Below are positions 2,682 to 5,208 of a DNA stretch of 5,238 nucleotides, one piece after another. The stretch lies in the NCBI GenBank assembly GCA_012032575.1, contig JAAUSP010000551.1, positions 1-5,238 of the forward strand. Reading direction: 5' to 3'. The stretch is from Anaerolineales bacterium (GTDB lineage Bacteria > Chloroflexota > Anaerolineae > 4572-78 > J111). Position numbers and translations under genes: made by a program. A model generated the notes under the pieces. It searched no databases. It was not told the DNA's origin and worked only from the letters and a program-made list of their open reading frames with translations. Positions within the stretch are counted from its first letter, which is position 1. Each line of letters begins with the position of its first letter.

Positions 2682-2692
2682 GTTACCAGCCG

Positions 2693-2712
2693 CCGGGCGT
2701 TGAAATGCCCGG
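2693..2712. repeat. GC-rich palindromic hairpin
   Basis: CCGGGC (2693-2698) and GCCCGG (2707-2712) form a perfect 6-bp stem with an 8-nt loop GTTGAAAT. Flanking AGC/GCT bases allow an extension with a bulge. It follows the terminator directly and has the form of a dispersed intergenic (REP-like) repeat. No U-tract follows. Confidence 0.65.
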
Positions 2713-2727
2713 CTACCCCAGGTGGAA

Positions 2728-2926
2728 GCCCGCTGAAGCAGGCGCATTACCTTAAAAGAAACTCCATTGAGGCATTTGCTGAATAATTGTTGAGCAATTT
2801 GAAAACTAATCATGATATACTCAGTACATCCAATTTTTGAAGCGGAGCAGGCTCCCACGCCTGCGTAGCGGCGGTGTGGGAGGCAGCGCCACAGACCCCC
2901 GCCCGGCTGAAACCTGCGCATTATCC
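2728..2926. repeat. Two diverged 24-26 bp repeats flanking further hairpins
   Basis: Bases 2728-2751 and 2901-2926 are imperfect copies of one sequence: GCCC-GCTGAA, then a variable part, then CGCATTA and CC. Between them GCAGGC/GCCTGC (2847-2852/2859-2864) competes with CTCCCAC/GTGGGAG (2852-2858/2876-2882) for pairing. This looks like overlapping remnants of dispersed intergenic repeats. Confidence 0.5.
2790..2821 (+). promoter_or_regulatory. Possible promoter of the HTH gene
   Basis: TGATATACT (2813-2821) is an extended -10 element with five of six bases of TATAAT. TTGAGC (2790-2795) upstream is a fair -35 with a long 20-bp spacer, tolerable with an extended -10. The -35 lies in the loop of a small dyad AATTG/CAATT (2785-2799). 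It would leave a leader of about 180 nt containing the hairpins upstream of the HTH gene. Confidence 0.45.
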
Positions 2927-2950: not shown

Positions 2951-3006
2951 CGTAACAGCAGCATTGAAGCGTTACGCTGTAGACATCTTAATTTGGAGGT
3001 GTCTAC
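2951..3006 (+). promoter_or_regulatory. Tandem stem-loops, the second holding the Shine-Dalgarno in its loop
   Basis: CGTAAC/GTTACG (2951-2956/2971-2976) and GTAGACA/TGTCTAC (2979-2985/3000-3006) are two perfect stems, each with a 14-nt loop, separated by two bases. The GGAGGT Shine-Dalgarno of the HTH gene (2995-3000) lies at the 3' side of the second loop. The 3' arm of that stem fills the spacer up to one base before the ATG at 3008. In RNA this would present the ribosome site in a loop next to a closed stem, a layout suited to translational control. Confidence 0.55.
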
Positions 3007-3007
3007 G

Positions 3008-3220
3008 ATGGGACGCAAAGTCAACTCAGAACGTCTGGAAGAAGTGGTCCAAACCATCCGGGAGCATGATGGGGAAGTACGGGCCAACGATATAGCCAAA
3101 GAACTGGATTTACACCCGGAGGCTGTGGCCCGGCTGTTGTCAGTTGCCGACAGGGAGAGTGAAGAACTGCTGATTGAAGATGACGAGGGGTATCTGGGCA
3201 TCTTTAAGAAGTGGTGGTGA
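3008..3220 (+). CDS. Small winged helix-turn-helix protein, 70 residues
   Basis: Predicted small DNA-binding protein; the exact family is not recognised. Helix 1 is about residues 6-20 (NSERLEEVVQTIREH). RANDIAKELDLHPEAVARLL (26-44) is a typical helix-turn-helix, with L33-D34-L35 at the turn and a recognition helix from about 36. It is followed by an acidic beta-wing, EELLIEDDEGYLGIF (52-66), and an aromatic tail FKKWW. The frame is open back to an ATG at 2837, but that part translates hairpin repeats. The start at 3008 is preferred because of GGAGGT 7 nt upstream. It lies 276 bp before the WYL regulator gene in the same direction, with a strong inverted repeat after its stop. A regulatory role for the following CRISPR-Cas genes is only an inference from position. 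Confidence 0.8.
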   Translation: MGRKVNSERLEEVVQTIREHDGEVRANDIAKELDLHPEAVARLLSVADRESEELLIEDDEGYLGIFKKWW

Positions 3221-3227
3221 ATGAAAT

Positions 3228-3266
3228 AGACCTGACAGGTCTTCGCGCAGCGTACCTGTCAGGTCT
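3228..3266. repeat. 13-bp perfect inverted repeat downstream of the HTH gene
   Basis: AGACCTGACAGGT (3228-3240) and ACCTGTCAGGTCT (3254-3266) form a perfect 13-bp stem with a 13-nt loop, beginning 8 nt after the stop codon. No T-tract follows, so it is a poor intrinsic terminator; it may act as a 3' stabilising or REP-like element. Hairpins of this sequence type are frequent in intergenic DNA of Chloroflexota and Bacteroidota (recalled). Confidence 0.8.
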
Positions 3267-3273
3267 CAGATTT

Positions 3274-3332
3274 GGCAACGAGTTTGAGCTTGATTCACGT
3301 TATTCGGCAACATGGTGTGATATGATGTTGCC
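3274..3332 (+). promoter_or_regulatory. Operator-like dyad over an extended -10 promoter for the WYL gene
   Basis: GGCAACAT (3306-3313) and ATGTTGCC (3325-3332) are a perfect 8-bp dyad with an 11-bp spacer. Within it lies TGATATGAT (3318-3326), an extended -10 with one mismatch to TATAAT; no good -35 is present, as is common for extended -10 promoters. A third half-site GGCAAC (3274-3279) stands exactly 32 bp upstream of the first, about three helical turns. This arrangement is typical of a repressor operator covering a promoter. The natural candidate ligands are the WYL protein itself or the small HTH protein (inference). Confidence 0.5.
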
Positions 3333-3337
3333 AAGAT

Positions 3338-3378
3338 AGACCCTCAAGGTCTTCGCGCAGGGGGTCTTTAGGGGGTCT
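3338..3378. repeat. AGACCC hairpin repeat sharing its loop with the upstream inverted repeat
   Basis: AGACCC (3338-3343) can pair with either of two GGGTCT copies (3362-3367, 3373-3378). Its interior repeats 14 bases, AGGTCTTCGCGCAG (3347-3360), found identically at 3237-3250 in the previous inverted repeat. The two are therefore copies of the same repeat family with different arms. The right end supplies the target site of the following mobile element. Confidence 0.65.
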
Positions 3379-3382
3379 GAAT

Positions 3383-3474
3383 GTATCTTCTCAATATGTA
3401 GGGGCGAACCCTTGCGGTCGCCCCGTGGGGCAGGCGCAAGGCCGTGCCCCTACCCCGAATTATTGAGAAGATAC
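3383..3474. mobile_element. 92-bp hairpin MITE with perfect 8-bp target duplication
   Basis: GTATCTTCTCAATA (3383-3396) and TATTGAGAAGATAC (3461-3474) are perfect 14-bp terminal inverted repeats. Both are bordered directly by the same octamer GTCTGAAT (3375-3382 and 3475-3482), an exact 8-bp target-site duplication. Inside, GTAGGGGC/GCCCCTAC (3398-3405/3446-3453), CCTTGCG/CGCAAGG (3410-3416/3435-3441) and GCCCC/GGGGC (3420-3424/3427-3431) continue the symmetry, so almost the whole element folds into one hairpin. It encodes nothing. The right duplication ends one base before the GGAGGT of the WYL gene, so the element sits in that gene's leader. Confidence 0.95.
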
Positions 3475-3482
3475 GTCTGAAT

Positions 3483-3488
3483 GGAGGT
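3483..3488 (+). promoter_or_regulatory. Shine-Dalgarno of the WYL gene, abutting the MITE duplication
   Basis: GGAGGT, 8 nt before the ATG at 3497. It is immediately adjacent to the right copy of the 8-bp target duplication (3475-3482), so insertion spared the ribosome site by zero bases. Confidence 0.85.
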
Positions 3489-3496
3489 ATATAACA

Positions 3497-4585
3497 ATGA
3501 GCAGACTGATTGACGACGAAGAGTTTATTCGCCTTTACACCCAACCCGGCGATGGGTTTACCGACCAGGAATTGGCGGATCGCTTTGAGGTGGGCCGCGA
3601 TGCTATCTTTAAGCGCCGCAAGAAGCTGGAAGATGCCGGCTATCCTATCGAAGCGACCGAACGGGGCCGTTATAAAATCAACCGGGAAAAGCTGCTGTCT
3701 CATATCCGGGTAAGCCAGGGTGAGGCTCTGGTATTGTATCTGGCTACCCGCCGCTTGAGCCGCAGCACCCGCCTGGCCAAGCGTTATGTGCAAAACGCGC
3801 TGGAAAAACTGGCCCTGGCCCTTTATAAACCGATGACCGAACAACTGGTTAAGGCCGCCGCCGGTGTGCCGGAGCATCCCGAAGCCAAAAAGCGTGAGGC
3901 CATTTTAGAGGTCTTGCTGCGCGGCTGGACCGAGCAGCTTAAAGTCCATATCAGCTACCAGGGCTTAAAAGGCGAGAAGCCGATGAACCACACCATTAGC
4001 CCTTACCTGATTGAACCTTCGCCCTGGAGTGACAGCGTTTATGTGATTGCCAAGACCAATGTCTGGGATGGCGACCCGACCCCCTTTCAATTGGAGCGGA
4101 TGGAAAAGGCCAGCCTCAGCACCGAACCGTTTAAGATTGACCCCAAATTTGAGCAGGAAACGCTGTTTAAATACGCCTGGGGTATCTGGGCCAGCGACAA
4201 AGAGCCGGTGACGGTCAAACTCCGTTTTAGCGGGCGCGAAGCCATTCGCCGGGTGGGGGAAAGCGTCTGGCACCCGCAGCAGACGATAAGCGAGCCGGAT
4301 GAGCAGGGCCGGGTAACGTGGCAAGCCCCCATTGCCGAATGGCGCGAGATGCTGCCCTGGATTCGGGGCTGGGGCGCGAGTTGTGAAGTGCTGGGGCCGG
4401 AGGGATTGCACCAGGCGCTTAAACGGGAAGCCCGCCGGTTGGCGGAGTTATACGAGGTGATGGCGATGGGAAAGCAACGATGGTTGCGCATGTGCGCGAC
4501 AGAGATAAAAAAATTCAATCGCTTGAAGACCATCTTGTTGCGGTTTCAAAATATGCCGGTCAATTTGCCGGTAAAATCGGGTTGA
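3497..4585 (+). CDS. WYL-domain transcription regulator, probably CRISPR-associated
   Basis: Predicted cytosolic ligand-sensing transcription factor. An N-terminal helix-turn-helix (about residues 18-62, FTDQELADRFEVGRDAIFKR, then an RGRYKI wing) is followed by a helical linker (68-140). The WYL beta-barrel comes next (about 143-215), with the degenerate core WSDSVYVIAKT (177-187) and FQLERMEKASLS (197-208). The WCX dimerisation domain (about 235-320) contains VKLRFSGREAIRRV and WIRGWGASCEVLGPEGL, ending in REARRLAELYE. WYL proteins often head CRISPR-Cas loci and control or assist them; cas3 directly after it supports that here. After AELYE (about 316-320), where the family usually ends, some 40 residues follow that are mostly cas3 sequence read out of frame, and the gene overlaps cas3 by 106 nt. 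Dropping one G from the GG at 4456-4457 would place a TGA right after AELYE. The product call is firm; the true C-terminus and the regulatory target are not. Confidence 0.9.
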   Translation: MSRLIDDEEFIRLYTQPGDGFTDQELADRFEVGRDAIFKRRKKLEDAGYPIEATERGRYKINREKLLSHIRVSQGEALVLYLATRRLSRSTRLAKRYVQNALEKLALALYKPMTEQLVKAAAGVPEHPEAKKREAILEVLLRGWTEQLKVHISYQGLKGEKPMNHTISPYLIEPSPWSDSVYVIAKTNVWDGDPTPFQLERMEKASLSTEPFKIDPKFEQETLFKYAWGIWASDKEPVTVKLRFSGREAIRRVGESVWHPQQTISEPDEQGRVTWQAPIAEWREMLPWIRGWGASCEVLGPEGLHQALKREARRLAELYEVMAMGKQRWLRMCATEIKKFNRLKTILLRFQNMPVNLPVKSG

Positions 4586-5208
4586 AAGAGATCGGGGAAA
4601 TTCTTGGTTTGTTGCACGACGTTGGCAAAGCAAGTCAGGAGTTTCAGAATTACATTCTTTCCGGGACGGGGCTTATCCTGCAAAATTCGCCGGATTGGGT
4701 GGATGTCAAGGCAAACAAAGGGAAGATTGACCATTCCACGGCGGGCGCACAAATCATATATCAAAAGTTGAGCGAACGTGGGGATAAGGCCACAGCAACG
4801 GCGATGGCAATGGCATTATGTATTGCCTCGCATCACTCCGGGCTGATTGATTCGCTTAAGCCAAATGGAGAAAACAACTTTCAACGGCGCATTGAAAAAC
4901 AGGAAGAAGGTTCTCATGCTGATGAAGCCTGGGCAAATTTGGCAAACGTTGCAAAAAAATTTGGTAAACTATTGTCTAATGACATAGAAACCCAGTTTAT
5001 CGAGAAACTGAATAGCTTAAAATTGGAGCTTGAATCGCCTGACACAATAAATTTCAAACGTGGTTTGCTGGTACGCTATCTGCTCAGTTGTCTCATTGAT
5101 GCCGACCGGCTTGATACCGCTGATTTTGAGTTTCCTTCCAACGAACGCATCAGAAATTACGGTAACTACACGCCCTGGAAAACGCTCATTGAACGACTTG
5201 GATCATAA
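4480..5208 (+). CDS. cas3: CRISPR-associated Cas3, N-terminal HD nuclease domain (partial, frame-broken)
   Basis: Type I CRISPR interference nuclease-helicase, recruited by Cascade to degrade target DNA; here only the metal-dependent HD nuclease domain is seen. Residues matching the HD signature are His18 (EDHLV), His46-Asp47 with Lys50 (LLHDVGKA), His85 (KIDHSTAG), His118-His119 (ASHHSG) and Asp207/Asp209 (LIDADRLD). The N-terminus VAHVRDRDKKIQSLEDHL and KIDHSTAG look like type I-C (Cas3 of the Bacillus halodurans kind), a recalled resemblance. The ATG at 4480 has GGGAAAG just upstream, within the WYL reading frame, so translation may be coupled. The stop at 5206-5208 arises from a one-base shift at the GG 5200-5201; one base fewer gives LDHKIERVCKQAR running off the window. 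The helicase part should therefore follow outside. Its base composition is visibly more AT-rich than the WYL gene. Confidence 0.9.
   Translation: MVAHVRDRDKKIQSLEDHLVAVSKYAGQFAGKIGLKEIGEILGLLHDVGKASQEFQNYILSGTGLILQNSPDWVDVKANKGKIDHSTAGAQIIYQKLSERGDKATATAMAMALCIASHHSGLIDSLKPNGENNFQRRIEKQEEGSHADEAWANLANVAKKFGKLLSNDIETQFIEKLNSLKLELESPDTINFKRGLLVRYLLSCLIDADRLDTADFEFPSNERIRNYGNYTPWKTLIERLGS

Follow-up and report, generated by a model that had tools for sequence, protein, structure and literature searches.

A probable 92-bp MITE of a Chloroflexota IS66-family lineage in the leader of a WYL-Cas3 locus

The window, a 5,238-nucleotide stretch of an Anaerolineales bacterium contig, carries a 92-bp element immediately upstream of the ribosome-binding site of a WYL-domain regulator gene. 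We consider it very probable that this element is a non-autonomous MITE of a Chloroflexota IS66-family lineage (single-ORF, ISBst12-like), inserted once and retained as a near-harmless passenger. In the mechanism that we propose, a transposase of this lineage would have acted in trans on the GTATCTTCTCAATA.. ends, a single insertion into the WYL-Cas3 leader would have duplicated 8 bp of the target so that GTCTGAAT now stands twice, and the leader would have grown by 100 nt in the interval that runs from the presumed promoter dyad to the Shine-Dalgarno site.

The element occupies positions 3383-3474, with its extent supported by sequence, repeat search, family copies and the partner insertion sequence described below. 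The first-pass annotation had proposed a 92-bp MITE with perfect 14-bp terminal inverted repeats (TIRs) and a perfect 8-bp target duplication, placed flush against the ribosome site; sequence inspection and TIR searches confirmed each of these to the base. A mismatch-tolerant search places the left TIR GTATCTTCTCAATA at 3383-3396 on the plus strand and the right TIR, the same sequence on the minus strand, at 3461-3474, with all 14 outer positions matching; these are the sole TIRs in the window at up to three mismatches (0.23 expected from shuffles), and a repeat search of the window recovers them as 22-nt inverted arms (3383-3404/3453-3474) with 86% complementarity. The two copies of GTCTGAAT at 3375-3382 and 3475-3482 are identical at 8/8 bp. 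Between the TIRs lies a 64-nt interior (3397-3460), assigned by clustering of copies and by folding to the GTAGGGGC type, with which it starts, and thus a GTAG-tagged palindrome; no transposase gene is contained in the 92 bp.

The whole element had further been described as a single hairpin, and folding agrees: together with both duplications it reaches -58.1 kcal/mol (z -8.03), whereas shuffles average -31.2 (sd 3.35) and 0/200 of them are as stable. Folded alone, the interior remains more stable than expected (z -3.56, 1/200 shuffles), and the core left after trimming 22 bp from each side is unremarkable (z -0.85, 41/200 shuffles) because the halves of its cargo class are offset. The hairpin ends 8 nt before GGAGGT, the Shine-Dalgarno site of the WYL gene (3483-3488, plus strand).

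The gene itself starts with the ATG at 3497 and encodes a WYL-domain regulator of 362 aa (3497-4585, plus strand), in which domain searches identify HTH_11, WYL and WCX domains along with a match to the first third of the Cas3c model; homology ends near residue 328. The next ORF (4480-5208, plus strand) overlaps it in a different frame, encodes a Cas3 HD domain and is probably interrupted near 5196. This neighbour upholds the earlier designation of the WYL gene as CRISPR-linked, but no CRISPR-like direct-repeat family was seen within the window. Upstream, a dyad common to relatives, GGCAACA-N13-TGTTGCC (3306-3332), lies over TATGAT (3321-3326) and is the likely WYL promoter/operator. A consensus promoter scan did not select this dyad as a promoter; it returned for the window one promoter-like site (2980-3009) and, on the other strand, one terminator-like site (3228-3242).

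Ahead of the MITE, repeat search and folding also identify in the leader a degenerate and older palindromic repeat, AGACCCTCAAGGTCTTCGCGCAGGGGGTCT.. (3338-3376). Both this stretch and window positions 3228-3266 hold AGACCTGACAGGT-type palindromic repeats, a relative of which forms the WYL-leader hairpin of locus L133 (about 489-525). A small HTH-like gene (3008-3220) precedes the WYL gene and is matched in 6/36 relative loci at 26-57% identity; it is itself preceded by TGTAGACA...TGTCTACx, as it is in loci L133-L135. Farther upstream, window positions 2690-2821 share two blocks (85% and 80% identity) with positions 1209-1406 of L128, which lie upstream of a distant WYL gene of genome G001. A second MITE-like element at 2475-2616 has the ends GTAACTACTCAG/CTGAGTAGTTAC, and its flanks, GAATAGG and GAATAGCG, amount to an 8-bp duplication minus one base; among similar pairs in the loci examined, 5/12 have perfect 8-bp duplications, and the ends resemble those given for ISDge4 in the excerpted description cited below. 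Four short tandem arrays (909-997, 1016-1086, 1495-1530 and 1672-1714) lie around and between the groEL and groES-like genes. Frame breaks are apparent in groEL (about 60-110, apparently two), at the WYL/Cas3 junction (4480) and inside Cas3 (5196), and these may be indel errors in the contig or marks of decayed genes. In two relatives, L136 and L151, a single open frame (1171 and 1161 aa, respectively) spans WYL and Cas3 HD; in many others the WYL open frame measures about 320-370 aa.

The element belongs to a dispersed family. A TIR-pair scan of genome contigs with GTATCTTCTCAA-N50..80-TTGAGAAGATAC returned at least 120 loci, from at least 20 assemblies; titles of the 120 matches listed name Chloroflexi, Chloroflexota, Anaerolineae, Anaerolineales or Chloroheliaceae in 115 cases, with four more in one "bacterium" assembly and one in Candidatus Altarchaeum. 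From these listed loci (at least 120) we analyzed 123 copies, the window included, 122 of them with both flanks. Further copies with different 8-bp duplications, the check that the first-pass annotation had suggested, were indeed found: among the matches listed, 73 of the 122 copies have perfect duplications, comprising 73 different 8-mers, 14 have one mismatch and 35 have two or more. Two copies in G001 share 96.7% identity with the window copy; this genome is listed in the same family as G224, the source of the closest WYL relative found. Beyond the scan, the exact 14-mer TIR occurs in 63 of the 396 genomes of the class of G002, 14 of which the scan had already reached; the richest of the 396, G149, contains 483 exact 14-mers, with the backward control found once. 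Plasmid and phage records queried with the 108-bp sequence gave six and four partial matches, respectively, none covering 80% of the query, and viral contigs searched with two TIR patterns gave none. The copy on the contig titled Candidatus Altarchaeum (L044, 482-580) has a perfect duplication and an AT-rich interior, and may reflect transfer, mis-binning or chance. In L047 a GTATC-type MITE (3297-3388) lies within a GTAAC-type pair (3118-3426), probably as nested elements. Genome G020 contains longer elements of about 210-460 bp, which were considered as candidate autonomous forms.

A transposase gene bounded by these ends, the other search suggested at the outset, was also found. IS66-domain matches occur at 10 places in 5 of the 12 TIR-bearing genomes searched, and one of them (L191, in G004) lies between GTATCTTCTCAATATTCCGGGG and an inverted GTATCTTCTCAATAGGTTGGGG within a 1,866-bp element flanked by the perfect duplication agtgacat. 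The space between its TIRs is taken up by a single long sense ORF of 553 aa. Its product scores 49.2 bits (6.3e-13) against PF03050, the IS66 DDE domain, above the cut-off of 23.1, and 119.8 bits (1.4e-34) against NF033517, below the NCBIfam IS66 equivalog cut-off of 180; as judged by these profile scores, the L191 transposase is a diverged IS66 member. The L191 element, recovered again as L197 in the sample below, provides an autonomous element with the same ends and a perfect duplication.

Relatives of this transposase are found in 16/396 class genomes at 1e-40 and in 5/19 TIR-bearing genomes at 1e-10, with the other 14, G001 among these, giving none. Across a sample of 24 loci of the transposase lineage, two of them overlapping, the 22-bp TIR GTATCWTCTCAATAAWYCGGGG is present at up to three mismatches in 20, seven of which have it at both ends, and a reversed-pattern control is present in 0/24. 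Other IS66 loci have it in 0/8 cases, or 2/8 at five mismatches; one of these eight, L192 (in G014), which falls outside the lineage, does have an exact 14-mer close by but not the 22-bp sequence. Perfect 8-bp duplications flank L197, L199 and L201, of which L201 has an ORF broken by a stop, and both ends are present without a duplication in L198, L200, L202 and L208. Other candidates were rejected: L188, G001's own IS66, as the partner, since it has GTATCTACTCACC ends and no duplication, and two long-distance TIR pairs in G008 as autonomous elements, since they are separate MITEs around unrelated genes.

We compared 36 loci of WYL relatives; a simple rule yielded a usable start for 35, and in four of the 35 fewer than 100 nt lie upstream. 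The closest, L133 (73% identity; the closest found, in G224), L134 (60%) and L135 (55%), all carry this small HTH-like gene ahead of WYL and match the window in the block that surrounds the dyad; the leader 3' of the dyad does not align between the window and these three loci. In 6/35 relatives the dyad is recognized, and 42-88 nt separate its left edge from the start; the corresponding 191 nt in the window equal 91 + 100, the latter being the element plus one duplication. A search for the family TIR at up to two mismatches within 600 nt upstream found the element in the leader of 0/35 relatives. For the comparison of orthologous loci that had been proposed, relatives' leaders without the element are thus the nearest substitute for an empty site, but no exact empty site from the same species was found; a genome search of G224 found no exact TIR.

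We next consider what the insertion might do. In MITE transcripts, RNase III cleavage (e.g., at Correia TIRs) and changes of stability are described in excerpts of PMC10969869 and PMC3733652, and the first-pass annotation had suggested that the hairpin could alter translation or act as a processing site, and so serve as a domesticated tuner of the CRISPR-Cas locus. We folded the leader with and without the element, beginning at the inferred 5' end of the transcript and extending into coding sequence. The predicted probability of being unpaired is 0.02-0.13 with and 0.00-0.12 without the element for the Shine-Dalgarno site, and 0.45-0.53 with and 0.45-0.52 without it for the AUG; the Shine-Dalgarno site pairs with coding sequence in both folds and is open in a shorter fold. 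By these nearly equal predictions, the transcript would be expected to hold the hairpin as a closed unit and to keep the ribosome site largely as it was before the insertion. A consensus scan shows neither an outward-facing promoter nor a terminator within the element.

Our gene-context set comprises 121 copies (from the at least 120 loci listed, with one N-containing copy and the window left out), for which genes were called by a longest-ORF heuristic; 27 of the copies among the matches listed lie at contig edges and 8 partly overlap ORFs. Long ORFs contain 31 of the 121 copies among the matches listed, compared with 95.8 for random positions, and gene insertions are therefore avoided or purged. 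Of the gene starts that neighbour intergenic copies among the matches listed, 15/58 lie within 40 nt, compared with 71/281 for random intergenic positions. Copies thus show no start-proximal excess, and the location of the window copy 22 nt before a start is therefore ordinary for the family.

A role of the hairpin in the leader, kept for tuning WYL/Cas3 as a ribosome standby site, by RNase processing or by mRNA stabilization, is the alternative that survives best, and we nonetheless regard it as unlikely. The strength of the hairpin and its position 8 nt upstream of the Shine-Dalgarno site would suit such a role, as would the post-transcriptional MITE effects just cited. Furthermore, a strong hairpin unrelated to the element occupies the corresponding leader of L133 (z -5.2, 0/200 shuffles), which leaves the neutrality of the insertion less than assured, and L121, the single relative (1/35) with a family TIR within 600 nt upstream, has an element end 106 nt before its WYL start. 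Against these stand the 0/35 relatives sharing the insertion, the short and plain leaders of L134 and L135, which have no hairpin, the predicted Shine-Dalgarno and AUG pairing that hardly changes, and the lack of a start-proximal excess among copies; together with the absence of a promoter or terminator in the consensus scan, they leave the earlier suggestion of domestication without support. The element is most likely a near-neutral passenger, whose influence on mRNA stability or processing would be modest at most.

The GTAG-tagged interior raises a second alternative, in which a RAYT-type tyrosine transposase would have mobilized a pair of GTAG-tagged REP sequences (a BIME), as opposed to a DDE transposase mobilizing a MITE. 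Both interior halves start GTAGGGGC, palindromes of this type occur in a few places without a nearby TIR, and GTAG repeats are reported from Chloroflexi in a passage of PMC3733652. However, the exact TIRs and 8-bp duplications, the occurrence of the same TIRs on an IS66 element, and the presence of other cargos without a GTAG palindrome in the same shell make this origin very improbable. A native cas-leader RNA structure (riboswitch or attenuator) that merely resembles a MITE would explain the high folding z-score, but it is refuted by the occurrence of this element at numerous unrelated positions, where the 8-bp duplications differ, sits poorly with a leader that fails to align among relatives next to a dyad that does and with the lack of a match in a gathering-level Rfam search of the window, and is the least credible reading. 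The evidence thus favors a MITE of the IS66-family lineage, inserted once. Weighing against it are the 35 copies among the matches listed with at least two duplication mismatches, the 14 TIR-bearing genomes that lack a match to the L191 transposase at 1e-10, the four two-ended IS loci with no duplication, the NF033517 score under its cut-off, the missing exact TIR in G224 and the exact 14-mer near L192.

As indicated by the copies without GTAG palindromes, the interiors of the family are diverse. At a similarity threshold of 0.75, the same ends enclose about 16 cargo classes among the matches listed, many being palindromes and seven single-copy, with class numbers that depend on clustering (the two largest split 68/17 or 44/41 at the same threshold; the N-containing copy was left out). 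Five assemblies contain more than one class among the matches listed. When class representatives were trimmed by 22 bp on each side, 9/16 folded more stably than every one of 100 shuffles, one was equalled by 5/100 and six were unremarkable; these six and the window core led us to reject the notion that every cargo is a hairpin. We likewise rejected confinement of cargos to shells, as several are also found more than 70 bp from any TIR, in counts that lean towards shells because all loci were obtained via the TIR. The AGAAACCAGGTTTCTT palindrome, a MITE cargo, also lies inside what seems to be a different inverted-repeat shell of the same assembly (L111, 3362-3394 and 4121-4153). We tentatively raise the possibility, which we hold to be somewhat doubtful, of a shell-and-cargo transposon, in which an IS66-type TIR shell would repeatedly pick up and spread host palindromes: ends would be shared and interiors not, one cargo could occupy more than one shell, and the WYL-Cas3 leader would have received hairpins more than once, a MITE here and a palindrome in L133. 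If true, this would offer a route for recruiting and dispersing host palindromic repeats and would bear on the origin of REP-like repeats.

One suspected insertion thus leads to a well-delimited MITE family whose transposase lineage is identified, within a phylum for which metagenomes supply most of the available knowledge. The insertion also explains why the cas-regulator leader of the window differs from those of relatives. Among the titles and abstract openings covered by our literature search, no paper describing this family was found; it may be catalogued elsewhere, for example in ISfinder. The words IS66 and Chloroflex are absent from the main text of a 2024 MITE review (PMC10969869), and the predicted MITEs on dioxane contigs described in passages of PMC12542641 are different from the present family.

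IS66 elements and MITEs are both known kinds, and the present system resembles each of them in part. The partner element is like the IS66/ISBst12 group in its one long ORF, IS66 DDE domain, GTA..CTCA ends and 8-bp duplications: an excerpt of PMC12898284 describes ISDge4 of Deinococcus geothermalis (IS66/ISBst12) with a single ORF, the ends GTGACTACTCAGCA/GTAACTGCTCAGCA and the 8-nt direct repeat CCTCGATG, and a table excerpted from PMC3281130 gives two Paracoccus IS66 elements with 8-bp repeats. It differs from that group in its GTATCTTCTCAATA ends and in a transposase that falls under the NCBIfam IS66 cut-off; the window element, in contrast, is a 92-bp derivative without a gene. GTAG REP/BIME sequences share with the window element a palindrome starting GTAGGGGC, which in the window is enclosed by TIRs and an 8-bp target duplication. 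Finally, the family is like the prokaryotic MITEs MITEPsy1, Correia/NEMIS, ERIC and Nezha, as portrayed in parts of PMC3189936, PMC3733652 and PMC10969869, in being short, non-coding and hairpin-forming, with TIRs, a target duplication and intergenic dispersal; it differs from them in its tie to an IS66 lineage and in the many unrelated cargos found within one TIR shell.
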